Assembly (NCBI RefSeq): GCF_024213555.1
Contig: NZ_JANAVO010000018.1
Coordinates: forward strand, 1-64,000
Length of the DNA: 64,000 nucleotides
Direction: 5' to 3'
Origin: Allokutzneria sp. A3M-2-11 16
GTDB lineage: Bacteria > Actinomycetota > Actinomycetes > Mycobacteriales > Pseudonocardiaceae
Positions 8,426 through 36,360 of the stretch are shown in pieces. The translations under genes and the position numbers were made by a program. Each line of letters begins with the position of its first letter. Positions within the stretch are counted from its first letter, which is position 1. Below the pieces are notes generated by a model. It saw only the letters and a program-made list of their open reading frames with translations, was not told where the DNA came from and did not search any database.

Positions 8426-11374
8426 CTAAGTGCGGCCACCGGTTCCGGGACAAATCGGCGGGTTCTCGGTCGAACACCGCTCCAGCAGCCGCGCCGCCTC
8501 CTCGCGCTTGGCCAGGCCCAGTTCCTCCATCACCGGCAGCGCCAGCAGCAGCTCGGCGATCGCGTCCTCGTGCTTTCCTTGCGCGGCAAGTGCTTCAGCC
8601 AGGTGGAAGCGCGCGTAGGACTGTCCGCGCCGGTCGTCGAGGGGCTCCAGGACGCGCAGCGCGCGGACCGCCCAGGTCTCGGCGTCGGCCCAGTTCCCGG
8701 ACGCGCAGTGCAGCTGGGACAACAGCTTTGACGCGTATCCCCTGGTGAGCTGCCGATTCGACCGCGCGAGCAGTGCGAACACCGCCTCCGCCTCGGCGCG
8801 CGCCCGCTCCAGGTCCTCGTGCTGCAACGCGCTGGTGGCCAGGCAGTAGCGGACGTTCGCCTCGGTGACCGCCAGGCTGGGCTCGTTCACGGCATGCTCC
8901 CTGGCCACCGCGATCGCGCGCTCGAACAGGGCGACGGCTTCCTCGTAGGAGCCCGTCTTGCTGACCACCGTGCCGAGCATGCGCAGGCAGAAGACCAGGA
9001 CTCGTCCGTCGTCCGCGCTCCGTGCCAGCTCGACCCCGCGCCGGGCGGCCTCCAGCGCCTCGGCGTACCTGCTCTGTTCGTAGTAGCAGAACGCCAGGGT
9101 GGCAACGGTGCGGGCGTGGTCCGCGGTGAACGACGTCCTCGCCAGGAGGCCAACGCACTTCTCGTAGTCGGCGATCTGCTGCTGGAGATCCGCGCCGACC
9201 ATGCCCACGTTGATCCGGCCCACCTCGGCGTACAGGGCGGTGTTCTCGTCGCCCCGCTCGCGCGCCCGGTCCCGGATGACGGAGAACAGCCGGGTGATCA
9301 ACCGCCAGTTCCCGTCATCGTCCTCAGTGGACGCGAGCCGGTTGAGCAGCGCGATGGCTTCGGCGAACAGACCCGCGTCCGCGGCGTGCCCGACGAGCGC
9401 CGCGAGGTTGTGGCGTTCGGAGCGGAACCACGCCACGGGGTCCGCGGTGTTGCGGTCCACCTCGTGCTCGGCGATCCCGGTCCGCTCGCGCAGCCCGGGA
9501 TGCCGGGTGATGTCGGTGATCACCACGACCATCCCGGCGTTGGCCCGCTCGCTGAACACCAGGTACCCGTCGACGAGCAGCCGCACGGCCGCGCGGCGGT
9601 CCTCGGGGTCCTCGGCGGCCAGTTCCCCCGCATAGAGGGCGAGCAGGCTGTGCAGCTGGTAGCGCGGCTCCCCGGTCTCGTCGACCCCGGCTGGCGTGAG
9701 CATCCCCCGGTCGACCAGCGCCGCCACCACCCGGTCCCCGTCGGCGTCCCCGGCCAGCAGACCGGCCACCCACGAGGCGAAGGTGTTCTCGCCCAACGGG
9801 CTCAGCCGCCGGAAGGCGCGCCGCAGCTCGGCGGGCAGGCTGGAGTAGCCGAGCGCGAGGCTCGTCCGGACCTGGTGGTCCGGGGTGGCGAGCTGGTCCA
9901 GCCGACCGCGGAGGTCGCGCAGGCGGGGCACGATCGCGCCGATCCGCCGGGCGGGCAGCGCGCCGAGGCGGGCGCCGAGCACCCGGAGGGCGAGCGGGTG
10001 ACCGCCGCAGTACGAGACGATCTCGCGGGTGGCGGGCTCCTCCCTGCCGACGCGGCCCGTGCCGACCGTCCGCGCGAACAGCTCGTAGGAGTCGGCCGGG
10101 CTCAGCTCGTCGACGCGGAAGTTCCGCACGCGCCCGGACAGCGCCCGCAGCGCGCGCTGGGCGGTCACGATGAACGCGCAGCGGGTCGATCCGGTGATCA
10201 GCGCGCTCGCCTCGGCGGCGTCGGTCACGTCGTCGAGCACGATGAGCAACCGCTTGCCGTACAAGCGATTCCGGTAAGCCGACTCCCGTGCCTCCGGCGC
10301 GCTGGGAATCGCGGGCGCCGTGACGCCGGTCGCGTAGAGGAGGTCTCCCATCGCGGCCGACGCGCGCTGGTCGCGTGAGCGGAGCCAGTGCAGGCCGTCC
10401 GGGTAGCGCTCACGGAGGTGGTGGGCCAGCCGCAGCGCGAGCGCGCTCTTGCCGATGCCGGACAGGCCGTGCACCACCGCGACCGGCGGCCCGTCGTCCT
10501 CGGCGGTGAGCCAGCGGGCGATCTCCGCGAGGAGCTCGTCCCTGCCGACCAGGTCCGGCACGTCCGGCGGGAGCGAGCACGCGGCCACCCACGGGCTCGT
10601 CGCCACGTGCCCGCCCTCCCCGGCTTCGCCACCGACCCCGCCGAGGACGCGGGCGTGCGCCTCGCGCAGCGCCGGGCCAGGGTCGATGCCCAGGGTCTCG
10701 GCCAGGTGCCGCTGGACTTCCCGGTACGCCGCAAGGGCTTCGGCCTGCCTGCCGGTGTCGTGCAGCGCGAGCACGAGCGAGCGCCACAGGCCCTCGCGCA
10801 GCGGGTACCGGCGGACCAGCGCCTGGAGCTCGCCGACGAGGAAGGCGTGCCTGCCCAGTGCCAGCTCGTGCTCGATCCGCCGTTCCAGCGCGGTCAGCCG
10901 GTCCTCCTCCAGCTGCGGACCGACCTCGCGCAGCAGCTCCGGGGACGGGACGCCGGTCAGGGCCGGTCCGCGGTACAGCTCCAGTGCCGTCGCCAGCGTG
11001 CCGGCCGCGTCCGCGGCGCCCGCCCGCTCGGCGGCCCGGATCAGCTCGACGAACCGGAATCTGTCCACAGTGGACGGATCGACGTCGATCAGGTACCCGC
11101 CCGCCAGGGTCTTGATCAGCTCGCGCCCGCCCGGGTACGGCGCCAGGATCTCCCGCAGCCGCCCGATGTAGCTCTGCAACCGGGCGGGCCACCCGTCGTG
11201 CTCGGCCGCGTCGCCGAGCCAGTGCGCGAACCGGTCGCCGGTGACGATCTCCCCCGGTGCCAGCAGCAGCGCGGCCAGGACCACGCGGAGCTTGCCGGAG
11301 GGGATGTCGACCAGGTCCTCCCCGCACCGGACTTCGAAGGGCCCCAGCAACCCGAACTCGAATCCTGCGCCCAT
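8426..11374 (-). CDS. SARP-type regulator with NB-ARC and TPR domains
   Basis: 982 residues. Winged helix and BTAD domain (about 1-245; 'FGLLGPFEVRCGEDLVDIPS'), NB-ARC module with P-loop 'GLSGIGKSALA' near residue 300 and 'LLIVLDDVTDA', then TPR-like repeats. It is paralogous to 3813-6803 over its whole length, pointing to a local duplication. The downstream kinase gene follows after 12 bp and could phosphorylate this protein (inference from AfsK-AfsR). The start at 11374 is supported by the usual start-to-winged-helix distance. Target genes cannot be named from sequence. Confidence 0.9.
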   Translation of the reverse strand: MGAGFEFGLLGPFEVRCGEDLVDIPSGKLRVVLAALLLAPGEIVTGDRFAHWLGDAAEHDGWPARLQSYIGRLREILAPYPGGRELIKTLAGGYLIDVDPSTVDRFRFVELIRAAERAGAADAAGTLATALELYRGPALTGVPSPELLREVGPQLEEDRLTALERRIEHELALGRHAFLVGELQALVRRYPLREGLWRSLVLALHDTGRQAEALAAYREVQRHLAETLGIDPGPALREAHARVLGGVGGEAGEGGHVATSPWVAACSLPPDVPDLVGRDELLAEIARWLTAEDDGPPVAVVHGLSGIGKSALALRLAHHLRERYPDGLHWLRSRDQRASAAMGDLLYATGVTAPAIPSAPEARESAYRNRLYGKRLLIVLDDVTDAAEASALITGSTRCAFIVTAQRALRALSGRVRNFRVDELSPADSYELFARTVGTGRVGREEPATREIVSYCGGHPLALRVLGARLGALPARRIGAIVPRLRDLRGRLDQLATPDHQVRTSLALGYSSLPAELRRAFRRLSPLGENTFASWVAGLLAGDADGDRVVAALVDRGMLTPAGVDETGEPRYQLHSLLALYAGELAAEDPEDRRAAVRLLVDGYLVFSERANAGMVVVITDITRHPGLRERTGIAEHEVDRNTADPVAWFRSERHNLAALVGHAADAGLFAEAIALLNRLASTEDDDGNWRLITRLFSVIRDRARERGDENTALYAEVGRINVGMVGADLQQQIADYEKCVGLLARTSFTADHARTVATLAFCYYEQSRYAEALEAARRGVELARSADDGRVLVFCLRMLGTVVSKTGSYEEAVALFERAIAVAREHAVNEPSLAVTEANVRYCLATSALQHEDLERARAEAEAVFALLARSNRQLTRGYASKLLSQLHCASGNWADAETWAVRALRVLEPLDDRRGQSYARFHLAEALAAQGKHEDAIAELLLALPVMEELGLAKREEAARLLERCSTENPPICPGTGGRT
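11063..11075. repeat. iterated palindrome GTCCACAGTGGAC (in SARP gene)
   Basis: Exact copy of the recurring 13-nt palindrome, inside the BTAD-coding part of the SARP gene 8426-11374. Other exact copies: 24493, 28947, 45317, 54504; many one- or two-base variants. Confidence 0.8.
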
Positions 11375-14880: not shown

Positions 14881-15714
14881 GTGTCTTCTTCGTGGAAATC
14901 ATTGATCGTTACGGCGCTCGTCGCGGTGGCCACCGCGGCGGTCACCACCGTCCCCGCCGCCGCCCAGCCCTCCGGCGCGGTCAGCCACCCCGACCAGGAC
15001 TACGCGGGCTCCACCCTGGCCGCCAACGAGGGGCACCGCGTCTCCCCGTTCGGACCGGACCAGGCCCCCGCCGGGATTCCCGGCATCGACGTCAGCCACC
15101 ACCAGGGCGGTATCAACTGGGGCGCGGTCGCCCGGGAGGCGCGCTGGGTCTACATGAAGGCCACCGAGGGCACGGGTTTCCGTGACTCCGCCTTCAACCG
15201 CAACTACACCGGCTCCTACAACGCCGGGATGATCCGCGGCGCCTACCACTTCGCCCTGCCGGACCGCTCCAACGGGATCACCCAGGCCCGGTTCTTCGTC
15301 GCCAACGGCGGCGGCTGGTCGCCGGACGGCCGGACGCTGCCGCCCATGCTCGACATCGAGTACAACCCCTACGGCGCCACCTGCTACGGCAAGTCGCACG
15401 GGCAGATGGTGGGCTGGATCCGGGAGTTCCACAACGAGGTGCACCGGCTGACCGGACGGTTCCCGACCATCTACACCACGCGTGACTGGTGGTCGCGCTG
15501 CACCGGGAACAACGGCGGCTTCGGCGCGACCAGCCCGCTGTTCATCGCCTGCTACTGCGCCACCCCGGGCGTCATGCCCAACGGGTGGGGATTCCACACC
15601 TTCTGGCAGTACACCGATCGCGGCCGGATCGGCGGGATCTCCGGCAACGTCGACCGCGACGTGTTCAACGGTTCCGAGGCCCGGTTGCGCGCACTGGCCC
15701 TCGGGCGCGGCTGA
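14881..15714 (+). CDS. secreted GH25 lysozyme (N-acetylmuramidase)
   Basis: 277 residues from GTG 14881, preceded by AAGGAGAG. Signal peptide about 1-28. The GH25 catalytic barrel runs from 'GIPGIDVSHHQGGINWGAVA' (first catalytic Asp) through 'YMKATEGTGFRDSAF', 'GAYHFALP' and 'PPMLDIEYNPYG' (Asp-x-Glu pair near residues 158-160) to 'FHTFWQYTDRGRIGG'. It matches Streptomyces M1-type muramidases that cleave peptidoglycan glycan strands. No wall-binding domain is present. A strong terminator follows. Confidence 0.95.
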   Translation: MSSSWKSLIVTALVAVATAAVTTVPAAAQPSGAVSHPDQDYAGSTLAANEGHRVSPFGPDQAPAGIPGIDVSHHQGGINWGAVAREARWVYMKATEGTGFRDSAFNRNYTGSYNAGMIRGAYHFALPDRSNGITQARFFVANGGGWSPDGRTLPPMLDIEYNPYGATCYGKSHGQMVGWIREFHNEVHRLTGRFPTIYTTRDWWSRCTGNNGGFGATSPLFIACYCATPGVMPNGWGFHTFWQYTDRGRIGGISGNVDRDVFNGSEARLRALALGRG

Positions 15715-15720
15715 CCTCGC

Positions 15721-15756
15721 GGCACGGCCGCGGTGCGATCGCGCCGCGGCCGTGCC
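15721..15756 (+). terminator. hairpin terminator after lysozyme gene
   Basis: GGCACGGCCGCGG (15721-15733) and CCGCGGCCGTGCC (15744-15756) form a perfect 13-bp stem with a 10-nt loop, starting 6 nt after the stop codon. The remaining gap to 16037 holds nothing that I credit as a gene. Confidence 0.88.
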
Positions 15757-16023
15757 CGCCTCGGCACATCGACAAAGGCGGATGCGCCACCGAAAAGCGG
15801 AGGACTTTCCGGGATGGAATGGGAGCGACCCCGACATTTCGGACTGGACCGGTGCGCGGCGGGGCGCGTGGCCTGCGCCGAGCCCGGCCGCCGCCGTCAG
15901 CGCGACCGTTCGTCCCAGGTCATACCCGGAAGTACGCCGCCTGAGAGTTCGTACGGGCAAACAAACGCATTACCGCGTTTTCCCGCGACCGAGGGCAGCT
16001 ATTTACTTCCACCGCCGAACCGC

Positions 16024-16036
16024 TACCCTCTGCGCC
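16024..16036 (+). promoter_or_regulatory. leaderless promoter of permease gene
   Basis: TACCCT at 16024-16029 lies 7 nt before GTG 16037, the distance at which transcription would start on the start codon itself. No ribosome-binding site is present, in line with a leaderless mRNA. Confidence 0.5.
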
Positions 16037-17572
16037 GTGCCGCTGAATTCCCACTCCACAATGCCCAAACGAGCAGGCGATGTCTCGCGAGCATTGGCCG
16101 CGAATCGCCTCGGCGTCTCGGCGGTGACATATTTCGCCATCGCTGTCGGCGCCCCACTGACAATCATGGCGGGCGCGGTGACGACCGGTTACGCCATCAC
16201 CGGCCAGGTCGGCATCCCGCTGGGTTTCGTGCTCATGGGCGTGGTGCTCGGCCTGTTCTGCGTCGGCTACGTGACCATGGCCCCGCACGTGCCCAACGCC
16301 GGCGCGTTCAACGCCTACATCAGCAAGGGCCTCGGCAGGCCGGCCGGGGTGGCGGGCGGCTGGGCGTCGCTGGTCGCCTACAACACGATGCAGATCGGCT
16401 TCTTCGGCACCCTCGGCGACGCCGCCGAACCGCTGTTCCGCGGCTGGTTCGGGCTGGAGCTGGCCTGGTGGGTGTACTCGCTGGCGGGCTGGGCGATCGT
16501 GGCCTACCTGGGACTCCAGCACATCGACCTCAACGGCCGCATCCTCTGCGTGCTGATGATCGCCGAGTGCCTGGTGATCATCATCTACAGCGTGGCGAAC
16601 CTGGCCAACCCGGCGGGCGGCGCGGTCACCATGGACACCCTGTCCCTGGCCAACCTGTTCGAACCCGGCGTCGGCGTGCTCTTCGCCATCGCGATCCTGG
16701 GCTTCGTCGGCTTCGAGACCACGGTGGTCTTCTGCGAGGAGGCCAGGAGCCCGCGCCGGACCGTCCCCGTCGCCACCTACCTCTCGCTCGGCGTGATGAC
16801 CGTGCTCTACGCGCTGGGCTCGTGGTCGATGAGCGTGGCCACCGGGCCGGACCGGATCGCCACCATGGCGCACGACCAGGGCTCCAACCTGATCTTCAAC
16901 CTGGCCGGGGACAACCTCGGCGGCGCCTGGGTGGTCATCGGCAGGCTGCTCTACGTGACCAGCGTGCTGGCCGCGCTGATCGCCTTCCACAACACCACCG
17001 CCCGCTACGCGTTCTCCCTCGGCCGCGAGCGGCTGCTGCCCTCCGCACTCGGCACGACCTCCCAGCGCACCAGCTCGCCCAGGCTCGGATCGCTGGCGCA
17101 GAGCGCCGTCGCGGGCACGGTGATCCTCATCTACGGCCTCGCGGGCGGGCACCCCGTGCGCGACCTGTTCTTCATCTGGACCGCCTCGGGCAGCCTGGGA
17201 ATCCTGATGCTCATCGCCACCACCTCGGTGGCAATCGTGGTGTTCTTCGCCCGCGAGCCCTCCGGGGAGACCGCCTGGCGCCGCGTGATCGCCCCGGTGC
17301 TGGCCGCCGCGGGCTGCCTGACCTCGGTGGTGCTGGTGCTGGCCAACTTCGACAAGATGCTCGAGGTCGACCAGAGCTCGCCGCTGCGGTGGGGGGTCCC
17401 CGGGATCTACCTGGCCATCGCCGTCCTCGGCGTGCTCTGGGGGCTGCGGCTGCGCACGCGGCGCCCCGACGTCTACGCCATGATCGGCCTCGGCGCGAAG
17501 AGCGCGGCCGGGACCGGCCTGGGAATTCTCTCCGAGGACAGCACAGCCGGGACGACGCGGCGCGTGCGCTGA
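16037..17572 (+). CDS. amino-acid permease, APC superfamily
   Basis: 511 residues from GTG 16037 (ATG 16061 is an alternative). About 12 hydrophobic helices. The first has the APC signature 'VSAVTYFAIAVGAPLTIMAG', and helix 6 'LFAIAILGFVGFETTVVFCE' with 'EARSPRRTVP' is typical of the family. It probably imports an amino acid or amine by cation symport; substrate unknown. It stands between the lysozyme and the biosynthetic operon, with its own leaderless promoter, so it is probably not part of the operon. Confidence 0.88.
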   Translation: MPLNSHSTMPKRAGDVSRALAANRLGVSAVTYFAIAVGAPLTIMAGAVTTGYAITGQVGIPLGFVLMGVVLGLFCVGYVTMAPHVPNAGAFNAYISKGLGRPAGVAGGWASLVAYNTMQIGFFGTLGDAAEPLFRGWFGLELAWWVYSLAGWAIVAYLGLQHIDLNGRILCVLMIAECLVIIIYSVANLANPAGGAVTMDTLSLANLFEPGVGVLFAIAILGFVGFETTVVFCEEARSPRRTVPVATYLSLGVMTVLYALGSWSMSVATGPDRIATMAHDQGSNLIFNLAGDNLGGAWVVIGRLLYVTSVLAALIAFHNTTARYAFSLGRERLLPSALGTTSQRTSSPRLGSLAQSAVAGTVILIYGLAGGHPVRDLFFIWTASGSLGILMLIATTSVAIVVFFAREPSGETAWRRVIAPVLAAAGCLTSVVLVLANFDKMLEVDQSSPLRWGVPGIYLAIAVLGVLWGLRLRTRRPDVYAMIGLGAKSAAGTGLGILSEDSTAGTTRRVR

Positions 17573-17710: not shown

Positions 17711-18760
17711 GTGCTTCCTTCGAGTGGAGAGGAAGAGGCGCATTCACGCGGTGGGCCGGTCGCGGTCGTGGCGGGCATCGGACGCCACGTCCCGCCGACC
17801 GTGCTCACCAATGCGGACCTCTGCCAACGTTTCGACACCAGCGACGAGTGGATCCGTGCCCGCACCGGTATCCGGTCCCGGCACGTGGTCCGGCTCGACG
17901 AGGCCACCTCGGACCTCGCCGTGCACGCCGCGTCCGCCGCGCTGCGCTCCGCCGACGCGACGGCCGGGTCCTCGGAGGCTTCAGCGGACGTGGACCTCGT
18001 CGTCCTGGCGACGGCCACCCCGGACCACCCCTGCCCGGCCACCGCGCCGCTGATCGCCGCGCGGCTGGGCCTGGGCGCCGTGCCCGCCTTCGACGTCGGC
18101 GCGGTCTGCTCGGGCTTCGTCTACGGGCTGGCCGTGGCCGACGGCATGATCCGCAACGGGGTCGCCCGCCGGGTGCTGCTGATCGGCGCCGACGCGTTCA
18201 CCACGCTGCTCAACCCCGCGGACCGCTCGGCCGCCGTCGTCTTCGGTGACGCCGCCGCCGCGCTGGTGCTTCGCGCGGGCCGGGCCGACGAGCCGGGCGC
18301 GGTGCAATCGCTGGCCCTGGGCTCCGACGGCCGCCTGGCGGAGCTGATCAGCATCCCCGCCGGTGGTTCGCGGGCGCCCCGGGGTGAGCCCGAGGACCGC
18401 TGGATCGCCATGCAGGGGCAGGCGGTCTACCGGCACGCGGTCGAGCGGATGGGCGAGGTGGCGCTGACCGCGCTGGAGCGGGCGGGCTGGAGCGTCGACG
18501 ACGTGGACAAGTTCGTTGCGCACCAAGCCAACCAGCGCATCCTCGACACCGTCGCGGGCAAGCTCGGGCTGCCCGCCGACCGGGTCTACTCCAACGTCGC
18601 CGAGCGCGGCAACACCGTGGCCGCCTCCATCCCGCTCGCCCTCGACGAGGCCGACGAGTCCGGGGAGCTCAGGGCGGGCGATCGCGTGCTGCTGTCGGCG
18701 TTCGGCGCGGGGGCGACATGGGGGGCGGCCACCCTCACCTGGCCGCGACTGGGGAGATGA
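17711..18760 (+). CDS. ketoacyl-ACP synthase III (FabH-like)
   Basis: 349 residues from GTG 17711; a later GTG near residue 20 is an alternative because FabH homologues begin around '[18 protein letters not shown]'. The catalytic triad is present: Cys133 in '[11 protein letters not shown]', His near 271 in 'VAHQANQRI', Asn near 300 in '[11 protein letters not shown]'. KAS III enzymes condense an acyl-CoA with malonyl-ACP. First gene of an eight-gene run with ATGA-type overlaps. It is not part of the known ScoA-E set, so it may build or start the acyl chain that the later enzymes modify. Confidence 0.92.
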
Positions 18761-19032
18761 CACGCATGGAACACCAGGAGACGGGCACGCGGGTGCTCGA
18801 ACTCGTCCAGGACTTCGTCACCACGGCGGATCCGGACCGCACCGGGCCGGTGCCCGCCACCGCCACCCTCGACGAGCTGGGCGTGGACTCGCTGGCCTTC
18901 GTCGACCTCCTCTCGCTCGTCGAGCGGGAGCTGGGCGTCGAGGTGCCGGACGAGGCGCTGCCGCGGATCGCCACCGTCCAGGACCTCGTCGACCACATCA
19001 GCAGCAGCCCGGAAAGGGACGGCACCTCATGA
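18757..19032 (+). CDS. acyl carrier protein
   Basis: 91 residues; ATG overlaps the KAS III stop by 4 nt. The phosphopantetheine site is Ser45 in '[19 protein letters not shown]', and the length and acidic helices are those of a free ACP. It probably works with the adjacent KAS III. A second free ACP lies at 22021, so the operon has two distinct carriers, one perhaps for chain building and one for loading the NRPS (inference). Confidence 0.9.
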
Positions 19033-19889
19033 AGATCACCCAGCAGGACGGCATCGGCGTCGTGGTGGAGGGCTTCGACTCCTCCTCCGACGAGCACGTG
19101 CGCCTGCTCCGCCGCGCCGTCTACCGCGAGAAGATCGTCGTGCTCAAGCACCAGGACCTCGACCCGAACGGGTTCCTGGAGCTGGGCCGCCGCTTCGGCA
19201 GGCCGGAGAAGTACTACGAGCCGATCTACCACCACCCCGAGGTCCCGGAGGTCTTCGTCTCCTCCAACGTGGGCGAGGGCGAACAGCGCGTCGGGGTGCC
19301 CAAGACCGGCAAGTTCTGGCACTCCGACTACCAGTTCATGCGGCGCCCCTTCGACATCACCTTCATCTACCCGCAGGTGGTGCCGACCAAGAACCGCGGC
19401 ACCTACTTCGTCGACATGTGCAAGGCCTACGACGGCCTCGGCGAGGACCTGAAGGTCGCCATCAAGGGCACCAGCGCGGTGCACAGCGTCCGCCGTTACT
19501 TCAAGATCCGGCCGAGCGACGTCTACCGGCCGCTGTCGGAGATCGCGGCGGAGGTGCACGAGAAGACGCCGCCGGTGTCGATGCCGACCGCGCAGCCGCA
19601 CCGCTTCACCGACGAGACCGTGCTCTACGTCAGCGAGGGCTTCACCGAGTCCATTGTGGACGGTGAAGGGAACCAGCGGCCGGACCTGCTGGAGGCGCTG
19701 CTGGAGGTCAGCGGGCAGCGGGACCCGAGCTTCAGCCACCCCGCGATCCACCTCCAGACCTTCGAGCAGGGCGACATGCTGGTGTGGGACAACCGGAGCC
19801 TGGTGCACCGCGCGCTGCACACCAGCACGCCGGAGCCCGCGGTGTCGTTCCGGGTCACGGTGCACGACGACACCGAACCGGAGGCGTGA
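19029..19889 (+). CDS. scoE: Fe(II)/2-oxoglutarate oxygenase, ScoE-like isonitrile-forming
   Basis: 286 residues, TauD/TfdA family; start ATG 19029 overlaps the ACP stop. Metal ligands: His98 and Asp100 in '[10 protein letters not shown]', His260 in '[10 protein letters not shown]'; Arg275 in 'VSFRVTV' would bind 2-oxoglutarate. In ScoE and Rv0097 this fold oxidatively decarboxylates an N-carboxymethyl-3-aminoacyl acid to a 3-isocyano acid. The assignment rests on the family plus the exact downstream order FcoT-ligase-ACP-NRPS, which is diagnostic for isonitrile lipopeptide loci. The product here is inferred. Confidence 0.87.
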
Positions 19890-19895
19890 TCGGTG

Positions 19896-20459
19896 ATGCG
19901 GGTCCGGCGGGGACACCGAACCGAGGAGGACCTGCTGCGCGAGGTGCTGCGGGTCTACAAGCCGCATTGCCGCTACGTCAAGGAGATCGGCGTCTCCACC
20001 AGCGGACGGCTGAGCGCCACCGCGGTGCTGGAGATCCCGGAGTCCTGCTACATCGACGACACCGGTCACCTCAACGCCGCCGAGGTCAACATCTGCTTCA
20101 ACCAGATGCTGTACCACCTCGTCGCCTACTCGGTGAAGCACCGGGCGGGCGAGGTGTTCGGGGACTGGACGATGGCGGACTTCCGGCGGCGCCAGCTCGC
20201 TGACATCGTGATCACCAGGTTCGCCTGCGCGTTCCGGCGGCCGATCGATCCGCTGCGCTTCCAGGCCGAGCTGGTCGTCGAACGCGTGGCCCGCAGGGGA
20301 ACCCGCCGCGACGGCGCGCCGCTGGTGCTCATGGAGACAGCGTTCAGGTTCTGGGACGAGGGCGGCGGGGCGGCCAGCGGCAACGCCCAGGTCATCCTCG
20401 TCGAGACCGGTGGGCCCAGTGCTCCCGGTGCTCCCGGTGAACAAGGACGGAACCCATGA
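19896..20459 (+). CDS. scoD: FcoT/ScoD-type hot-dog thioesterase
   Basis: 187 residues from ATG 19896 (a GTG three bases earlier is possible). It shares the FcoT hallmarks: 'RVYKPHCRY', 'ESCYIDDTGHLNAAEV', 'CFNQML' and the closing 'FWDEGGGAASGNAQ', covering the Tyr/Tyr/Asn positions described for Rv0098. ScoD/FcoT adds glycine to an alpha,beta-unsaturated acyl-ACP and releases the adduct, the substrate of ScoE. It lies 6 nt after the oxygenase and overlaps the ligase start by 4 nt. Confidence 0.9.
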   Translation: MRVRRGHRTEEDLLREVLRVYKPHCRYVKEIGVSTSGRLSATAVLEIPESCYIDDTGHLNAAEVNICFNQMLYHLVAYSVKHRAGEVFGDWTMADFRRRQLADIVITRFACAFRRPIDPLRFQAELVVERVARRGTRRDGAPLVLMETAFRFWDEGGGAASGNAQVILVETGGPSAPGAPGEQGRNP

Positions 20460-22021
20460 GCCCCCGACAGCTGCGCCACTTCCCCGAACTGCGGTCGGTC
20501 GCCGAGATCCCCGCCTTCCACGCGGGGATGCAACCGAACACCGCCGCGATCCTCTGCGCGGGCAAGGTACTGAGCTACGCGGAGCTCGACCGCGCCAGCA
20601 GCAAGCTGGCGCGGGCCCTGCTCGCCGAGGGCGTGCGCCAGGGCGAGCGGGTGGCCTTCCTCGGCAAGGAGTCGGTCGACTACTACGTGGCCTTCTTCGG
20701 CTGCGCCCGTGCCGGGGCCGTGCTGGTGCCGATCAACTTCCGGTTGACCAGCCACGAGGTCGGGCACATCCTGCGCGACTCCGGCAGCCGCGTGCTCCTC
20801 GTCGACCGCGATCTCGCCGAGGTGGTCCGGCCGCTGCTGCCGGAACTGCCCGAGCTGCGGGTGATCGGGCTGGACCGGCTGGGCGAGTGGATCAGCCCGT
20901 ACCCGGACACCGCGCCCTCGCGCTGGGCCGATCCCGAGCAGCCGGTGGTGCAGCTCTACACCAGCGGCACCACCGGGCTGCCCAAGGGCGTCGTGCTCGC
21001 CCAGCGCAGCTTCTTCGCGATCCGCGACGCGCTGGCCGATCGGGGGCTGACCTGGATCGACTGGCGCGAGGACGACCGCAACCTGATCGGCATCCCCGGC
21101 TTCCACGTCGGCGGGATCTGGTGGGCGACCCAGGCTTTCGCCGCCGGGGTCACCAACATCGCCATGCCGCGCTTCGACAGCGCCGAGGCGGTCCGGCTGA
21201 TCCACGGGCACGGCGTGACGACCGTCTGCGTGGTGCCGTCGATGCTGCGGCTGCTGCTGGCCGAACCGGACGTGGACGCGGAGACCTTCCGGTCCGTGCG
21301 CAAGGTCGTCTACGGCGGCTCGCCGATCGCCGAAGCGCTGCTGCGGGAAGCACTTCCGGTGCTCGACTGCGATTTCGCCCAGATCTACGGGTTGACCGAG
21401 ACCGGCAACACCGCGGTCTGCCTGCCCCCTGCCGACCACGACCCGCGGCTGGGCAGGCTGCGCGCGGCGGGCCGGGCCTACCCCGGCGTGCAGATCAAGA
21501 TCATCGACCCGGACGGCGCCGAGCTGCCCCCGGGTGAGGTCGGCGAGGTCTGCCTGCGCACCCCGGCGCGGATGGTGGAGTACTGGCGGCTGCCGGAGGC
21601 CACCGAGCGGACGCTGCGCGAGGGCTGGGTGCACACCGGCGACGCCGGGCACCTCGACGCCGACGGGTACCTGTTCATCCAGGACCGGCTCAAGGACATG
21701 ATCATCGTCGGCGGGGAGAACGTCTACCCGACCGAGATCGAGAACGTGCTCGCCCAGCACCCCGGTGTCGCCGACTCCGCCGTCGTCGGCGTCCCGGACG
21801 ACCGCTTCGGCGAGGCGGTGCACGCCTTCGTCGCCCGGCGGCCGGGCGAGCAGGTGGGCCCGCGCGAGCTGCTCTCGCTGTGCACCGAGCGGCTCGCCGG
21901 GTTCAAGATCCCCCGGCGGTTCGAGTTCGTCGAGCGCATCCCGCGCAACCCCAGCGGCAAGATCCTGCGCCGCGAGCTGCGCGATCCCTTTTGGTCCACA
22001 AAGGACAGACAGGTCAACTGA
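20456..22021 (+). CDS. scoC: acyl-ACP ligase, ScoC/FadD10-like
   Basis: 521 residues, ANL superfamily. Motifs: 'QLYTSGTTGLPKGVV' (P-loop, about 165-180), 'QIYGLTETGN' (about 300), 'EGWVHTGDAGHLDADGYLF', 'DMIIVGGENVYP' and the C-terminal 'NPSGKILRREL' lysine. FadD10 and ScoC activate a beta-modified fatty acid and pass it straight to a stand-alone ACP, without CoA. That fits its position directly before an ACP gene (1-nt overlap). It should load the isonitrile or amino acid-modified acyl chain. Confidence 0.9.
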   Translation: MSPRQLRHFPELRSVAEIPAFHAGMQPNTAAILCAGKVLSYAELDRASSKLARALLAEGVRQGERVAFLGKESVDYYVAFFGCARAGAVLVPINFRLTSHEVGHILRDSGSRVLLVDRDLAEVVRPLLPELPELRVIGLDRLGEWISPYPDTAPSRWADPEQPVVQLYTSGTTGLPKGVVLAQRSFFAIRDALADRGLTWIDWREDDRNLIGIPGFHVGGIWWATQAFAAGVTNIAMPRFDSAEAVRLIHGHGVTTVCVVPSMLRLLLAEPDVDAETFRSVRKVVYGGSPIAEALLREALPVLDCDFAQIYGLTETGNTAVCLPPADHDPRLGRLRAAGRAYPGVQIKIIDPDGAELPPGEVGEVCLRTPARMVEYWRLPEATERTLREGWVHTGDAGHLDADGYLFIQDRLKDMIIVGGENVYPTEIENVLAQHPGVADSAVVGVPDDRFGEAVHAFVARRPGEQVGPRELLSLCTERLAGFKIPRRFEFVERIPRNPSGKILRRELRDPFWSTKDRQVN

Positions 22022-22251
22022 TGACGCACCAGCTCAGCCGCGCGGGCATCCGCGCGGAGGTCGCCGAACTGCTCTACCTCGCCCCCGACGAGGTCCCGCC
22101 CGGGGAGAACCTGTTCGCGCTCGGCCTGGACTCGGTCGGGCTGATCGGCCTGGTGGAGCGGTGGCGCGCGGCGGGCGCGCGGGTGAGCTTCGTCGAGCTC
22201 GCCGAGCGGCCGACGCTGGCCGAGTGGTGGGAGCTGCTGGCCGGTGGCTGA
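22021..22251 (+). CDS. scoB: acyl carrier protein, ScoB-like
   Basis: 76 residues, ATG overlapping the ligase stop by one base. Phosphopantetheine Ser38 in '[17 protein letters not shown]'. The gene corresponds to Rv0100/ScoB in order and size. It should receive the activated acyl chain from the ligase and present it to the NRPS condensation domain. Its stop overlaps the NRPS start by 8 nt, so expression is tightly coupled. Confidence 0.9.
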
Positions 22252-25200
22252 ACCGCGCTGGTGGCCGCTCACCGCGGCGCAGGCGGGGATCTGGACCGGG
22301 CAGCAGATCGACCCGGCCTCCCCCATCTACAACACCGCCGAGTACGTCGACATCGACGGCCACCTCGACACCGGCCTGCTCGTCGCGGCGATCCGCCGCA
22401 CCGTGGAGGAGGCCGAGGCGCTGTCGGTGCGCTTCGTCGAGCACGACGACGGCCCCCGCCAGGTCGCCGACCCGGTGCCGTGGCACGTGCACGTCGCCGA
22501 CCTGCGGGAGCACTCCTCGCCGGTGGGGTTCGCGCTGCGGTGGATGGCCGAGGACATCGCCCGCCCGGTGGACCTGGGCGCCGACGCGCTCTTCGGGCAC
22601 GCGGTCTTCCGCGTCGGGGAACGTCGTTTCCTGTGGTACCACCGGGTTCACCACATCCTGCTGGACGGCTACGGCCTCGCGCTCATCGCTCGCCGGGTGG
22701 CCGAGCTCTACACGGCGCTGGCCGAGGGGACGCCGCCGGAGCCGTCCGGGTTCGGCGAGCTGGGCGCGGTCGTGGCCGAGGACGCCGCCTACGCCGAATC
22801 CGACCAGTACACCGAGGATCGGCGGTTCTGGGCGGAGTACACCCGCGACCGCCCCGAGCCGGTCACCCTGGCCGGACGGACCGCGCCCATGGCCCGGCAC
22901 GTCGTGCGCGCGGAGGGCGACATCGGTCGTGAGCTGTCCAGCATGCTCTCCGGTGTTGCCAGGACGGCACGGGCGAACTGGACCGAACTGCTCTACGCCG
23001 CGGTCACCGGCTACGTCCACCGGATGACCGGTGCGTCGCCGGTTTCCCTTGCCATGCCGGTGATGGGGCGCACGGGCTCGGTCGCGCTGCGGGTGCCGTG
23101 CACAGTACTCAACGTGGTGCAGCTGTGGGTCGACATCGAGCCGGGAACGACCCTGCTCGACCTCATGTGCCAGTTCTCCGGGCGCGTGCGGCGCAGTCGC
23201 AGGCACCACCGCTACCGCTATGAAGAGCTGCGGCGGGACCTGCGGGTGGTCGGCGGCGACCGCAAGCTCTTCGGCACCTCCGCCAACATCATGCCCTTCG
23301 ACTACGGCCTGAGCTTCGCCGGTGCGCGGTCGGTGGTGCGCAACGTGTCGGCGGGCCCGATCGAGGACATGGCGTTCAACATCTACCACCGGGCGGACGG
23401 CGACGGACTGCGCATCGCCTTGGACGGCAACCCGAACCTGTACACCGCCGAGGAGCTGACCCTCCACATAGGACGCTTCTGCACGTTCCTGCGGCGCATG
23501 GTCGACGCGCCGGAGACCCCGATCGGCGAGCTCGACCTGCTCGACGTCAACGAGCTGCACGGGTGGAACCACACGATGCGGCTGTGGCCGAAGCAGAACG
23601 TGGCGCGGCTGTTCAACGACCAGGTCCACGAGACACCCGATCAGTCCGCACTGGTCGACCAGCACACCACGATGTCCTTCGCCGAGCTGAACCGTCGCGT
23701 GAACCGCTTGGCCTGGCTGCTGCTCCGGCGCGGTGTGGAGCCCGGCCAGTTCGTGGGGTTGCTGTTGCCGCGGACCGCCGACGCGATCATCTCCTTGCTG
23801 GCGGTGGTGAAGGCGGAAGCGGCGTACGTGCCGATCGATCCGGACCACCCGGCGGAACGGATCGCGTTCGTGCTCGACGACGCGGAGCCGGTCATGGTGA
23901 TCACCACGTCGGACCTGGCCTCGCGGCTCCCGGCCGAGGTGACGGCTCTGGTGCTCGACGCTCCCGAGACGGCCGAAATGCTGGCGCAGGAACCACATCT
24001 GGACCCGCTCAACACACAGTTGAGCCAGCTGCTGCCGTTGTGCCTGATCTACACCTCGGGCTCGACCGGCCGCCCCAAGGGCGTCGTGGTGACCCATCGG
24101 GCGATGGTGAACCTGTTCCACCACCACCGCACCACCATGATCGAGCCCGAGTCGGACGGGCGGCGGTTCCGCGCGGCGCTGACCGCGTCGCTGTCCTTCG
24201 ACACCTCGTGGGAGGGCTTGTTCTGGCTGCTGGCCGGGCACGAGCTGCACCTCGTCGACGACGAGGTGCGCAGGAATCCCGCTGAGCTGCTGCACTACAT
24301 CACCTCGCACCGGATCGACTTCCTCGACATCACGCCCACCTACGCGGAGGAGCTGCTGTCAGCGGGGTTGCTCACCAGTGCGCATCGTCCCGCGGTCATC
24401 GCGCTCGGCGGGGAGGCGGCGGGCTCCGCGCTCTGGTCGGCACTGCGCGCGGAACCGGAGATCTCCGCATACAACCTTTATGGCCCAACGGAGTCCACAG
24501 TGGACGCTACGTGGGCCTTGCTCGACACCGAGATCCCGGTGATCGGCAGGCCCGTGGCGAACGGCCAGTGCCACGTTTTGGACGCGGCGCTGAGGCGCGT
24601 GCCCGTGGGCGTCGTCGGCGAGCTGTACGTAGCGGGCACGCCCCTGGCGAACGGCTACCACCGCCGCCCCGGACTGACCGCGGAACGCTTTGTCGCCAAC
24701 CCTTTCGGCAAGCCGGGCGCGCGGATGTACCGCACTGGCGATCTCGCCCGCTGGCGCCCGGACGGCACGTTGGAGTACCACGCCAGAGCTGACGACCAGG
24801 TCAAGATCCGTGGCTACCGCGTCGAACTCGGCGAGATCGACGCGGTCCTGGGCACCCATCCCGCCGTTGTCCAGGCAGCGGTGCTCGCCCGCGACGCGCG
24901 CCTCGTGGGCTATGTGGTCCCCCAGCCCGGTTCCACCGTCCCCGAGCCCGCCGAGCTGCGCCGCCATATCGCCAAGCAGCTGCCGGACTACATGGTTCCG
25001 TCGGCATACGTGGTCCTGGATCGGTTGCCCGCCAACACGAACGGCAAGCTCGACCGCGCAGCGTTGCCCGCGCCGTCGAATGACGCGGCGTCCGGTAGAG
25101 CACCGCGCAGTGAGCGGGAGCGCGTGCTGTGCGGGCTCTTCGCGGAGACGCTCGGATTGCCCGAGGTCGGCATCGACGACGACTTCTTCGTACTGGGTGG

Positions 25201-26095
25201 GCATTCGCTCCTGGTGGCGCGCTTGCAGAACCGGGCGCGCGCGGAACTCGGTCTCCGGCTGAGCATCGCGGACGTCTTCGCCGCGCCCACCGTCGCCGCG
25301 CTTGCCGACCGACTGGGCTCTTCCCGCGCGAGCGATGACGACTACGCCGTGCTGCTTCCCTTGCGGCGCGAGGGAAATCAGGCTCCGTTGTTCTGCGTTC
25401 ACCCTGCCGCGGGCATCAGCTGGGTCTACGCCGGGTTGCTGCGGCACGTCACCGATCGGCCCGTCTACGGGCTCCAGGCGCGCGGACTGTCCCAACCGGA
25501 CAATCGACCATCCACAATGGACGAAATGGTCAAGGACTACCTCGACCAGATCCGCTCTGTGCAGCCGCGCGGCCCCTACCACCTGCTCGGTTGGTCCTTC
25601 GGCGCCGGGGTCGCCCACGCCATGGCGAGTGCCCTCCGCGCTGAAGGTGAGGACGTTGCGTTGCTGGCGCTGCTCGACGGCTACCCGCACACGGCTGCGC
25701 CGCACGCTGCGGACACCCTTGTCGCACTGCTCGATTCCCTGGGCTACGAGCCCGCCGCGCCGATGACCTACGCCGAGTTCGAGGAACGGGTGTTGTCCGG
25801 CGAAGGCCCGCTGGCGATCCTCGACCGGCCCCGGCTGGCCGCGCTGACCCGGGTCTTCGCCGACTCGCTGGCACTGGCCGGAACCTCGGCGACCCCGCGC
25901 TTCGACGGCGAGGCCCTGTTCTTCCACGCCACGGCCGGTCGCGCCGAGCACCACCCGGAGCCCGGGGAATGGTTGCCGCACCTGGGTGGCGGCCTGCGGC
26001 TGCACTCGATCGACTGCACCCACGGTCAGTTGACCGACCCGGCCGCGATGGCCCGGATCGGCCAGGTGCTCACCGAGTACCTGGCAGGATCATGA
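22244..26095 (+). CDS. scoA: single-module NRPS, C-A-T-TE
   Basis: 1283 residues from GTG 22244. Condensation domain (about 1-430) with 'HHILLDG' at 136-142; adenylation domain (about 455-940) with '[15 protein letters not shown]' near 600, '[15 protein letters not shown]' and '[11 protein letters not shown]'; carrier Ser near 987 in 'GGHSLLVA'; thioesterase (about 1040-1283) with 'GWSFGAG' near 1115 and the His in 'DCTHGQL'. By hand alignment to GrsA the pocket reads roughly D-T-W-D-I-L-L-V-D-K; the acidic residues suggest a basic amino acid (Lys, Orn or Arg). ScoA and Rv0101 have a reductase end; here a thioesterase would release an acid, ester or lactam. Confidence 0.9.
24493..24505. repeat. 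iterated palindrome GTCCACAGTGGAC (in NRPS gene)
   Basis: Exact copy, inside the adenylation domain just after GPTE, where it encodes STVDA. Confidence 0.8.
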
Positions 26096-27423
26096 AGACC
26101 AAGGCGGGCCTCGCGGTCGTGCTCGCCGCCGCGTTCATGGGGCAGGTGGACGGGTTCGTCGTCACCGTGGCGTCTCCGGTGATCCAGCGCGAGCTGCCCG
26201 CGAGCTTCGGACAGGTGCAGCTGATCGGCGCCGCCTACGTGATCGCCGCCGCGGCCGGGCTGATCACCGGCGCCCGGCTGGGCGACCGCTACGGCCGTCG
26301 CCGGGTCTTCCTGGTGGGCGTCGCCGGGTTCACCGCGGCGTCGGCGGTGTGCGGCCTGGCCCCGACCGCGGAGCTGCTGATTGCCGCGCGGTTCGCCCAG
26401 GGCGCGGCGGCCTCGCTGCTGCTCCCCCAGTTGCTCGCGCTGATCCGCTCGATGTTCCTCGACGAGACCGAGCGCGCCCGCGCCATCGGGTGGTACGGCG
26501 TGGTGATCGGTCTTGGCGTGATCTCCGGTCTCGCCGGTGGCGGGCTGGTGACGCGGCTGGACTGGCGGCTGGCGTTCCTGATCAACGTGCCGGTCGGCGT
26601 GGTGATCCTCGCGTTGGGGCCCAAGGTGATCGCCGAGACCGACCGCGGTCTCACCCGCCTCGATCCCACGGGTGCCGGGCTGACCGTGCTCGCGCTGCCC
26701 GCCTTGGTGGCACCGCTCGTGCTCGGCGCGGAGTCCGGCGGCGCGGTGTGGCCGTGGCTCAGCGTTCTGCTCGGCGCCCTCACCCTGGCGGTTTTGGCCG
26801 TCCAGCAACGAAAATCGTCCAGCCCGCTGTTCCCTCCGCGAGTGGTGACCGCGCCCGGCACGCGGACCGGGCTGCTGGCGATCATGGCCTTCTTCGGTGG
26901 CAACGCCGGGTTGTTCTTCGTGTTCACCTTCCACACGCAGGCCGCACTCGGCGTGGAGCCGTTCGCCGCCGGACTGATGTTCGTGCCGCTCGGGATCGGC
27001 TTCGCGGTGGGGTCGTGGTGGGGCGGCCGGTTGGCCCCCCGCCTCGGCGGACGCCTGCCGGTGCTGGGTTGCCTCGGGCTGGCCACCGCCCTGTCCGCGC
27101 ATCTCCTTGTGGGCCAACTGGTTCCGCACGCCCAGCACGTGCTGCTGGCCGTCGCGATCGGGCTCACCGGGCTGGCCCAGGGACTCGTGGTGTCGTCCCT
27201 GGTGACGTCACTGTTCGGCCGGGTGTCGGTCGCGGACGCGGGAACGGTTTCCGGCCTTGCTGCCACCGCGACGCAGGTGGGCCTCGCGACCGGTTACGCC
27301 GCGGTCGGCGCCTGGTACCGGCTCGTTCTCGGTGCGGCCCCGGGCCAGGCTTATTCGGCCGCCATGGCGGTGCTCATCGTGCTCGCCCTCGGCACAGCGG
27401 CGTTGTGTCACCGAAGGCGCTGA
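26092..27423 (+). CDS. MFS exporter (DHA2-like)
   Basis: 443 residues, start ATG 26092 overlapping the NRPS stop. Hydrophobicity suggests 13-14 helices; '[14 protein letters not shown]' is the loop 2-3 motif A and '[17 protein letters not shown]' the motif-C-like helix region of drug:proton antiporters. As the last gene of the operon it is the likely exporter of the lipopeptide or its metal complex. Its 3' end overlaps the convergent gene at 27408 by 16 bp. Confidence 0.9.
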
Positions 27424-33354: not shown

Positions 33355-36300
33355 TCACCCGCCCGCGGCGAGGTCGAACAGGATTCGCATCCGCACCCGG
33401 GCGCTGTCCTCGGCCTGCGGACCCAGGCGGTCGGCGTCCCGGGTGGCCGCCGCGGCGGCGGCGCGGTCCCCGAGCCGGGTGTGCGCCAGGGCCAGCAGCC
33501 GCAGGCTCAGCACCTCCTCCGAGGCCAGGCCGAACCGGGAGAACGTCGCCGCGGTCGACCGCAGCACGGCGAGGGCCTCGCCGTGCCGCCCGGTGCCCAG
33601 CCACACGGCGGCGAGGTCGCGTTGGGTCTGGGCGATCATCAGCGGGCTGCGCATCAGCTCCGCGTAGGCGTGGCTCTCCTCGAACTGCCGCTCGGCCAGG
33701 GCGTGGTTGCCCGCCGCCGCCTCGATGTAGGCGCGGACGTGCAGCAGGTTCGACCGCAGTTCGCTGCGATCGGCGGAGGAGCCCAGCAGCTCCATCGCCT
33801 CGGTCACCCCGGCCCGCGCCTCACGGGGCCTGCCCGCCTGGAGGTACATCCACACCAGCGTGTTCAGCACGATCATCAGCCACCGGTTCTCGCGCGACTT
33901 GCGCGCCAGCACCAGCGCCCGCTCCGAGGTCTCCAGTGCCTCCTCGACGCGGCCGAGCAGGCGCAGCGCGACGGCGCAGTTCTGCATGGAGCACGCCTGG
34001 CCGCCGAACTCGGTGAGCCCGTCGAAGATCCGCACCGCCTCACCGGCCAGGCCCAGCGCCTCCTCCAACCGCCCGAGCCGGATGAGCGTGCCCGCGTAGT
34101 CGTTGAGCACGAACGCCGCGTCCCGCCGCTCTCCCAGCCCCAACAGCGTTGCCGCGCACCGTCTTTGGGTCCGCGCGGCCTGTTCGACGTCCCCGTCCAG
34201 GATGTCGATCCAGGTCATCGCGAACTCCGCCCGCGCGCGCAACCGCTCGTCGCCGAGCAGGCTCAGGTCGTCCAGGCTCGCCGGGACCAGCTCGCGGATC
34301 TCGTCGTTTCCCCCGCACAGCAGGAAGAACCGCACGAGCCGATCGGTCAGCACGACCGCCCGCCGGTGCCATCCCGTCGCCCGCGCGAGGCGGATCAGGT
34401 GGACGAGCAGGCGGCGCTCCGCGGTCAGCCACAGCAGGGGATCGTGCTCCAGCTGCCTGGCCACCCGGGGCAGCGAGCGCACCGTGTCCGCGCCCGCTCT
34501 CGGCTCGAACGGGCCGAACGTGGTCGGCAGCCCGCGATTGGCCAGCTCGGTGAGGTCGATCGCCCGCTCCACCAAGCGAAGCAGCCCGGCGAGCCGGTCA
34601 GCGCCGACGTCCTCCTCGACCGCTCGTTCCTCCGCGAACACCAGGAGCAGGTCGTGGATCCGGTACCTCGGCTCGCCCACCTCGTCCCGCCCGCTCGGTT
34701 CGAGCAGGTTCGCCTCGACCAGCTCCTCCAGCACCGAGTCGGGATCGGCGACGTCGAGCAGCACGGCCACCGTCCACGCGGCGACCTCGCGCGCCCGCAG
34801 CGTTCCCAGCGACCGCAACGCGCGGCGGGCGAGCGCGGACAGGCCGTGGTAGCTGGTCGCGAGGGAGGCGCGCACTTGGAGATCGCTGGTCGTCAGCTCG
34901 TCGAGGCGCCGGTGCGCGTCCTCCAGGCGCTCCGCGAGGTGGGCCAGCGGCAGGTGCGGCCGCGCGGCCAGCCTGCACGCGGCGACGCGCAGCGCCAGCG
35001 GAAGCCCGCCGCAGGCGGCGACGATCCGCGCGGCGCCCTCGGGTTCCTCGTCGACCCGCTCCTCGCCGATGACGCGGCGCAGCAGGTCGTCGGCGGCCGA
35101 GTCGGCGAGCGGGCGCACCGGTTCGGTGAGGGTTCTGGCGAGCCCGCTCAGCCTGCTGCGGCTCGTCACGATCACCGCGCTCCCCGGTGTTCCCGGCAGG
35201 AACGGCCGCACCTGCCCGGCGTCGGCGGCGTCGTCGAGCACGACCAGCACGGAGCGCCCGGCCAGCGCGGCGCGGAACGCCGCCGCCCTCGCCTCCACCC
35301 CCTCGGGCACGGCCGAGGCCGGAACACCAAGGGAGGTAAGGAGATGCCCGAGGAGCTGCCCGGGTCCGACGCCGCGCCCGGATGCCCCCTCCAGCGGCAC
35401 GAACAGCTGACCGTCGCGGTAGACCTCGCTCACCGAGTGCGCGACGTGCACGGCCAGGGCGGACTTGCCCGCGCCGGGATTGCCCGAGAGCACCACGACC
35501 GGGACGACGTCACCCGCCTCGCGCAGGTGCGCCCTGATCGCGTCGGCCTCCGCCTCCCGCCCGGTGAGGTCGGTGACGTCGAGGGGCAGCTGGCGCACCG
35601 GAGCCGCCTTCGGTCCCGGCTCGGCCGATTCTCCTTCTCCGGCAAGGATTTCCGCGTGCAGCCGTTGCAGTTCCGGCCCCGGTTCGGTGCCGAGCTCGTC
35701 GACCAGCACCATCCGGCCCTCGCGGTAGACCTCCAGGGCGACGGCTTGGTCGCCGGAGCGCCACAGCGCGGTCATCAGCAGCGCCCGCAGCCGCTCGCGC
35801 AGCGGGTGCTCCACGACCAGGCGCCGCAGCTCCGAGATCACCTCGGCGTGCCTGCCCATGCGCAGCTCGGCGTCCAGGCACTCCTCCAGCACCAGGACGC
35901 GTTCCGATTGCAGGCGCAGGATTTCGGGCTCCAGCGCGGGGATCACCAGTCCCGCCAGCGGACGCCCGCGCCACTCGGCGAGTGCCTGGCGGAAGTGCCG
36001 GACCGCCAGCTCGAGCTGTCCGAGCCGGGCGGCTTCCCGCCCCGCCGCCACCTCGCTGGCGAACACCAGCGTGTCCAGTCGCCGCGGATCGACCTCCAGC
36101 CGGTAGGAGTGGTCCAGGTGCACCAGCGGTGTGTCCGTGAGCTGCCTGCGCAGCCGGGAGACGTAGGTGTGCAGGTTGGACAGATAGGACTTCGGCGGGT
36201 TCTCCCCCCACAGCGCGTCGACCAGTTCGTCGAGCGACACCGCGCGGTTGGCGTGGAAGAGCAGCACCGCCAACAGGGTCCGCGGTTGAACACCAGTCAG

Positions 36301-36360
36301 CGAAACCGGCTCCCCTGCGGAGGTCCACACGGCCAGAGGGCCCAGAACGCTGTAGTGCAC
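33355..36360 (-). CDS. SARP-type regulator with NB-ARC and TPR domains (third copy)
   Basis: 1001 residues from GTG 36360, preceded by GGGAG and matching the start of family winged helices ('VHYSVLGPLAVWTSAG'). Winged helix and BTAD to about 250, NB-ARC with P-loop 'GNPGAGKSALA' near 291 and 'SVLVVLDDAADAGQV', then TPR repeats. It is more distant from the other two SARPs of the window than they are from each other. It follows the FAD oxidase gene by 34 bp on the same strand. Targets unknown. Confidence 0.9.
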   Translation of the reverse strand: MHYSVLGPLAVWTSAGEPVSLTGVQPRTLLAVLLFHANRAVSLDELVDALWGENPPKSYLSNLHTYVSRLRRQLTDTPLVHLDHSYRLEVDPRRLDTLVFASEVAAGREAARLGQLELAVRHFRQALAEWRGRPLAGLVIPALEPEILRLQSERVLVLEECLDAELRMGRHAEVISELRRLVVEHPLRERLRALLMTALWRSGDQAVALEVYREGRMVLVDELGTEPGPELQRLHAEILAGEGESAEPGPKAAPVRQLPLDVTDLTGREAEADAIRAHLREAGDVVPVVVLSGNPGAGKSALAVHVAHSVSEVYRDGQLFVPLEGASGRGVGPGQLLGHLLTSLGVPASAVPEGVEARAAAFRAALAGRSVLVVLDDAADAGQVRPFLPGTPGSAVIVTSRSRLSGLARTLTEPVRPLADSAADDLLRRVIGEERVDEEPEGAARIVAACGGLPLALRVAACRLAARPHLPLAHLAERLEDAHRRLDELTTSDLQVRASLATSYHGLSALARRALRSLGTLRAREVAAWTVAVLLDVADPDSVLEELVEANLLEPSGRDEVGEPRYRIHDLLLVFAEERAVEEDVGADRLAGLLRLVERAIDLTELANRGLPTTFGPFEPRAGADTVRSLPRVARQLEHDPLLWLTAERRLLVHLIRLARATGWHRRAVVLTDRLVRFFLLCGGNDEIRELVPASLDDLSLLGDERLRARAEFAMTWIDILDGDVEQAARTQRRCAATLLGLGERRDAAFVLNDYAGTLIRLGRLEEALGLAGEAVRIFDGLTEFGGQACSMQNCAVALRLLGRVEEALETSERALVLARKSRENRWLMIVLNTLVWMYLQAGRPREARAGVTEAMELLGSSADRSELRSNLLHVRAYIEAAAGNHALAERQFEESHAYAELMRSPLMIAQTQRDLAAVWLGTGRHGEALAVLRSTAATFSRFGLASEEVLSLRLLALAHTRLGDRAAAAAATRDADRLGPQAEDSARVRMRILFDLAAGG

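Follow-up and report, generated by a model that had tools for sequence, protein, structure and literature searches.

Gene content of the operon

The window examined here, a stretch of 64,000 nucleotides from Allokutzneria sp. A3M-2-11 16, carries at positions 17711–27423 an operon of eight head-to-tail genes on the plus strand, all with open frames, which we confirmed as real and which holds the enzyme set of an isonitrile lipopeptide (INLP) cluster, with a thioesterase (TE) at the end of its nonribosomal peptide synthetase (NRPS) where its relatives have a reductase. That this is no chance assembly of genes follows from the phmmer E values against the ScoE and FcoT structures, together with the recurrence of the same gene order in named genomes. 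The features are as follows.

17711..18760, plus strand: KAS III, a FabH-like 3-oxoacyl-acyl carrier protein (ACP) synthase, exact start uncertain; PF08541 (E 1.6e-34), PF08545 (E 3.6e-25), FabH structures matched
18757..19032, plus strand: ACP 1, motif GVDSL; PF00550 (E 4.3e-12) on the open reading frame (ORF) 18718–19032; its ATG overlaps the KAS III stop
19029..19889, plus strand: putative ScoE-type Fe(II)/2-oxoglutarate (2OG) isonitrile-forming oxygenase/decarboxylase; TauD family, assigned by identity to ScoE and SfaA, by residues and by tree
19893..20459, plus strand: FcoT-type thioesterase in the ScoD position; PF10862 (E 4.6e-51), structure 5wsy (E 2.3e-47), Rv0098 (E 6.5e-23)
20456..22021, plus strand: AMP-dependent acyl-AMP/ACP ligase in the ScoC/FadD10 position; PF00501 (E 1.4e-82)
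22021..22251, plus strand: ACP 2 in the ScoB position, motif GLDSV; PF00550 (E 2.5e-10) on ORF 21880–22251
22244..26095, plus strand: one-module NRPS of 1283 aa with condensation (C), adenylation (A), thiolation (T) and TE domains (Pfam Condensation, AMP-binding, PP-binding, Thioesterase); C motif HHILLDG, T motif GGHSL
25304..26095, plus strand: the stretch of the NRPS behind the join, a linker and the TE domain, at the place of the relatives' reductase; from sliding identity, TE tree, approximately unbiased (AU) test, closest TEs and motifs
26092..27423, plus strand: putative major facilitator superfamily (MFS) exporter; PF07690 (E 6.8e-42)

A first-pass annotation, made from the sequence alone, had proposed an operon of the isonitrile-lipopeptide type, and this was borne out by the position of the oxygenase inside the ScoE/SfaA group and by confirmation of the TE in the NRPS. 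The oxygenase (His98/Asp100/His260, counted from the ATG), FcoT, ligase, ACP and NRPS do stand in sco order as it had stated, although its label 'FadD10-type' for the ligase holds for gene position and not for the closest structure, since among solved structures FadD13 scored 297 bits and FadD10 232 bits; the ligases that occupy this position in related loci were 54–68% identical to the one in the window. Its statement that all of the genes overlap by a few bases applies to every junction but one: the starts overlap the preceding stops (by ATGA, TGATG or 8 nt), with the oxygenase and FcoT genes instead lying 3–6 nt apart. The KAS III has kept its Cys-His-Asn motifs, and the triad motifs of the TE are likewise present, with Ser in GWSFG, Asp in LLDGYP and His in THGQ.

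The oxygenase compared with ScoE

The oxygenase was 63% identical to ScoE (phmmer against 6dch, E 7.6e-116), 59% identical to SfaA and 44% identical to the (carboxymethyl)amino fatty-acid oxygenase of structure 9p9p, the chain of which we take to be mycobacterial. The substrate of ScoE is the C4 acid 3-((carboxymethyl)amino)butanoic acid (CABA), and the residues discussed for the enzyme are Tyr96, Tyr97, Tyr101, Arg157, Lys193, Arg195, Asp198, Arg201, Glu209, His299 and Arg310 (PMC7949033). All 14 of the ScoE residues that we checked, from the facial triad, the CABA-binding positions and the mobile 2OG-binding positions, were identical in the window oxygenase; the 14 include the metal ligands His132, Asp134 and His295, the numbers of which were taken from the alignment. 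A tree of 57 rows, with Streptomyces thinned and rooted on the 9p9p sequence, placed the window oxygenase inside the group that holds both ScoE and SfaA. Within that tree, ScoE grouped with loci L038, L039, L044 and L068, and SfaA with L085 (Streptomyces orinoci).

Thioesterase in place of the reductase

For comparison we used the best 80 of 177 confirmed oxygenase matches from a scan of GTDB species genomes, with the window genes placed in each locus (L numbers) by tblastn. A locus was called flanked when it had an NRPS frame of >1200 aa with at least 2.5 kb behind it, as was the case for 59 of the 80. Oxygenase, FcoT, ligase and C domain were found together in 56 of these 59, and every one of the 56 gave a reductase match by tblastn. 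The only flanked loci with a TE were L012, L013 and L018, all three lacking FcoT and ligase matches. Counted over all 80 loci, the C domain was followed by a reductase in 62 and a TE in three, while three were cut before the end and 12 had no C match; Pfam confirmation of the NRPS end covers 10 loci only (8 reductase, 2 TE). The window is the only member of the compared set that joins the whole enzyme set to a TE, and since the TE replaces the terminal reductase expected of a sco-type INLP cluster, we regard the operon as a variant and not as a typical INLP member.

The identities along the NRPS change abruptly. To the reductase-type NRPS of Kutzneria sp. 744 (L011) they were 0.64 for the C domain, 0.62 for A, 0.61 for T and 0.24 for the TE region, and the C-A-T part, at about 62% identity to L011 and L118, is of the INLP kind. 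Against the final module of a multimodular NRPS (G121, L174) the corresponding values were 0.22, 0.47, 0.55 and 0.61. Sliding identity placed the join near residue 1020, to about 30 residues. The window TE was 0.60–0.61 identical to TEs of multimodular NRPSs vs 0.36–0.42 to those of other isonitrile loci, and the five closest TEs in 390 genomes of the family (61–62% identical) end NRPS frames of 3501–5387 residues. The AU test, in which the window TE was constrained with those of L012, L013, L018 and L122, rejected a shared origin with these four (p-AU 0.007). Because the identity switches near residue 1020 and a shared TE origin is rejected, the NRPS is a chimaera, in which a TE from an unrelated assembly line most likely took the place of the reductase, in an event separate from those at the other TE loci.

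An artefact of genome assembly at the TE was considered and is unlikely, because the T domain that precedes it and the MFS protein that follows both resemble those of isonitrile clusters; the window also holds no N. A class-wide search with the C domain gave matches in 53 of 394 genomes at E 1e-70, mostly to other kinds of NRPS, and among them six NRPS frames of 1338–1464 aa at 47–50% identity. The literature searched did not describe an isonitrile cluster of five genes with a TE at its end, which does not establish absence from print.

Of the four features that the first-pass annotation had singled out as new, the thioesterase stands, against 56 of 56 reductases in the relatives. The other three turned out to be shared: one-module NRPSs are the rule among the relatives, an MFS gene follows the NRPS in six of the eight loci that share the gene order of the operon (L009, L010, L011, L017, L019 and L118; not L014 and L015), and the KAS III with a second ACP in front is common, as detailed below. 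Three points are new to the present analysis: the probable exchange of the domain, the lack of importer genes in the window, and another isonitrile cluster, of the reductase type, elsewhere in the genome. The window MFS protein is 52–62% identical to those at the same place in L009–L013, L017–L019 and L118.

The KAS III and ACP head

In 60 of the 80 loci a KAS III gene lay no more than 1.5 kb upstream of the oxygenase; an ACP was found in 59 and both in 58. The 60 include L084 and L087, where the KAS III is 37–40% identical, lacks the ACP and is probably another KAS III, and L036, with a short match only. The head of KAS III and ACP was also seen in Streptomyces loci whose oxygenases group with ScoE or SfaA (L038, L044, L068 and L085, but not L039). 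With 58 of 80 loci carrying it, relatives of ScoE and SfaA included, what had been called a non-standard head is the common head of the family. Some NRPS clusters have no KAS III beside the oxygenase, namely seven loci from Nocardia, four from Streptomyces (L039, L060, L067 and L080) and the cluster on contig 33 of the genome studied here. Conversely, L065, L072, L081 and L086 carry KAS III, ACP, oxygenase and FcoT with no match to a condensation domain in the fetched flank. A KAS III tree (35 rows, Streptomyces thinned) agreed with the oxygenase tree in the main groups.

From the frequency of the KAS III–ACP pair, the agreement of the trees and the occurrence of KAS III, ACP, oxygenase and FcoT also where no condensation domain was matched, we infer that the KAS III supplies a short acyl chain, a correlation that rests on few cases. 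The short length is suggested by the C4 substrate of ScoE and by the 4-carbon chains of the lysine congener related to SF2768, as against C14–C20 chains in the mycobacterial compound, according to PMC9600254. The product of the NRPS-free cassette in L065, L072 and L086 may be a simple isonitrile fatty acid. In these three loci, which were the ones scanned, a free-standing thioesterase (PF00975) follows the oxygenase/FcoT cassette.

Importer genes and a second isonitrile cluster

A binding protein or FecCD permease like those next to the second cluster (see below) was matched in 58 of the 59 flanked loci, and a copper-type ATPase in 41. In 56 loci the binding protein lay no more than 3.2 kb behind the NRPS, the exceptions being L010, L014 and L015. 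The one flanked locus with no importer match was L014 (Actinomadura roseirufa), for which a flank of only 3.2 kb lies behind the NRPS. In the 64 kb window, tblastn at a cut-off of 1e-8 gave no match to the binding protein, FecCD or the copper-type ATPase, and a chalkophore uptake locus, that is, a binding protein and a FecCD permease beside the cluster, was not found there. FecCD was also absent from the contig of the window (contig 9), the binding-protein family not having been searched genome-wide; the whole genome gave 15 FecCD matches, one of them under the cut-off.

The same genome has a second isonitrile cluster on contig 33 (L094:7079–16545), with oxygenase, FcoT, ligase, an NRPS ending in a reductase, binding protein and FecCD permease. 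A gene of the sigma-70 family, resembling extracytoplasmic function factors, stands just before it, and a copper-type ATPase match lies beside it. The A-domain code of its NRPS is of the Streptomyces kind, vs the Nocardia/Actinomadura/Pseudonocardiaceae kind in the window. In two genus mates the single oxygenase and the single FcoT resemble those of contig 33, and the window cluster is absent from both.

Predicted amino acid, pathway and product

The A-domain code of the window NRPS, read by motif and not by superposition, is D-T-E-D-I-L-L-V-D. Loci of Nocardia, Actinomadura, Micromonospora and Pseudonocardiaceae share the pattern D-T-E-D-x-L-L-V/I-D, and Streptomyces has another code. Besides the first position, three positions are acidic (E, D, D), and a basic residue would therefore fit. 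According to PMC9600254, the known Streptomyces diisonitriles have lysine cores and SF2369, an Actinomadura compound by the reference list of that paper, has an ornithine core. Since Actinomadura loci share the code class and SF2369 has this core, ornithine is our first guess for the predicted amino acid on the NRPS.

The sequence itself shows which enzymes are present, that their catalytic residues are kept, that the NRPS is chimaeric and that importer genes are missing; the chemical steps, the chain length, the amino acid and the preference for hydrolysis over cyclisation are our inference. The KAS III would join an acetyl-type starter with malonate on ACP 1, and a housekeeping reductase and dehydratase would convert the product to a 2-enoyl-ACP. 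FcoT would then add glycine and release an N-carboxymethyl-3-amino acid, which the oxygenase would turn into a 3-isocyano acid, to be loaded onto ACP 2 by the ligase. The single condensation domain would acylate an NRPS-bound diamino acid, either ornithine or lysine, and the TE would release the product by hydrolysis as a free acid, or by ring closure, in place of reduction to an alcohol, whereupon the MFS protein would export it. We give a probability of about 0.65 to this reading, a short-chain pathway of the sco/sfa family with an exchanged offloading step, from which an isonitrile-bearing diamino-acid amide is released as the free acid (or lactam) and exported. It would probably be a small compound of the known copper-binding isonitrile family in a form not seen before, an acid or a ring.

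The outcome of release depends on the acylation: with both amines acylated no lactam could form and the TE would give the free acid, while with one isonitrile acyl chain the TE could close a ring, for example by attack of the side-chain amine on the thioester. TEs of multimodular NRPSs often cyclise, the closest relatives of the window TE end such NRPSs, and its triad motifs are present. The C domain, however, is 56–64% identical to those of L009, L010, L011, L017, L019 and L118 and 46–53% identical to those of most Streptomyces loci, and the C domains of these isonitrile loci are presumably of the kind that acylates both lysine amines. We regard a ring product as unlikely, so that of the isonitrile acyl-amino acid or lactam proposed earlier, the lactam part is possible but not favoured. 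A different role for the head gene is less probable still, namely that the KAS III is not biosynthetic but a FabH copy conferring self-resistance to an isonitrile aimed at fatty-acid synthesis. The precedent would be amycomicin, which inhibits FabH according to PMC13273461. The window KAS III is FabH-like with intact motifs, and the genome has three further motif-bearing copies. That a KAS III with ACP recurs in most of the loci, many of them with importer genes, and follows the oxygenase tree in its main groups argues for biosynthesis; so does L076 of Streptomyces virginiae, an isonitrile locus with no KAS III match in the fetched flanks. L076 (710–13067) has a ScoE-like oxygenase beside a cytochrome P450, an ACP/FcoT region and a reducing type I polyketide synthase (PKS), and is possibly the amycomicin cluster.

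As to function, the operon might still make an ordinary chalkophore, with the TE-released product re-imported with copper through an importer encoded elsewhere, such as that of the contig-33 cluster, in which case the missing importer genes would mean little. The binding protein, FecCD permease and nearby copper-type ATPase match of that cluster, and the 15 FecCD matches of the genome, are consistent with this; the near-universal importer genes of the flanked relatives, set against none in the window and no FecCD on contig 9, are not, and we consider it possible but rather doubtful. Just as tentative is the idea that the operon, with its reductase traded for a TE and its importer lost, has left the copper-uptake role, the exported isonitrile acid (or lactam) depriving neighbours of copper or hitting a target enzyme while the second, reductase-type cluster and its importer supply the producer.

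Several points weigh against the short-chain pathway with exchanged offloading as we have drawn it. In the KAS III tree another KAS III of the same genome (own_L181) falls among the cluster copies, with support of 83 and a long branch, so that the cluster copies need not form a single clade. Glu94 of ScoE was tried as a mark of short chains and rejected, SfaA having Val. The TE tree has long branches, and hydrolysis and cyclisation are not told apart for the donor-type NRPS. The code was read by motif, the A-domain specificity is predicted only, and neither L014 nor L015 is linked to SF2369. The product of the operon, too, is a prediction.

If the change of role is true, a single genome would have one version of this chemistry for uptake and another for competition. 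The proposed reading predicts an isonitrile acid or lactam, vs the reduced products expected of the reductase-type relatives. The NRPS most likely represents a case from nature in which the offloading domain of a very small assembly line was swapped in frame, showing where a TE can replace the reductase in this family, and the operon is a test case for whether isonitrile clusters leave copper uptake once importer genes are lost.

Neighbouring genes

An amino-acid permease gene (15482–17572) lies directly before the operon, with no match listed among the related loci. Three large regulators of the Streptomyces antibiotic regulatory protein (SARP) type (BTAD-NB-ARC-TPR) flank the operon on both sides, at 3771–6803 (plus strand), 8426–11374 (minus strand) and 33355–36651 (minus strand). 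A separate lipid locus on the minus strand, at 49761–51932 and 55155–57662, encodes a FabA-like/PKS-dehydratase protein and a fatty-acyl-reductase-type domain fused to a wax-ester-synthase-type domain.

Comparison with known systems

With the sco and sfa clusters (Streptomyces coeruleorubidus and S. thioluteus SF2768) the operon shares the order of oxygenase, FcoT, ligase, ACP and one-module NRPS, the sco order being that given in the first-pass annotation. Unlike them, its NRPS ends in a TE and not a reductase, the A-domain code is another one, an MFS gene forms the tail and no importer genes were found. Closer in layout are Kutzneria sp. 744 (L011), G263 (L118), Lentzea aerocolonigenes (L009) and Actinosynnema pretiosum (L010), with the order from KAS III to MFS, C-A-T identities of 58–62% and the same class of A-domain code; these have a reductase at the NRPS end and matches to the binding protein and/or FecCD in the fetched flanks. 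The C-A-T-TE architecture followed by an MFS gene, again with this code class, is found in Saccharothrix (L012), Micromonospora C31 (L013), Actinophytocola (L018) and G135 (L122), which differ from the window in having no FcoT or ligase match, a separate TE origin, and matches to binding protein, FecCD and copper-type ATPase. The isonitrile locus L013 is preceded by an alpha/beta hydrolase gene. The mycobacterial nrp cluster, Rv0097–Rv0101, has the same kinds of enzyme, the window oxygenase being 44% identical to 9p9p, and is set apart by an extra NRPS module, an ornithine core and C14–C20 chains, as described in PMC9600254.

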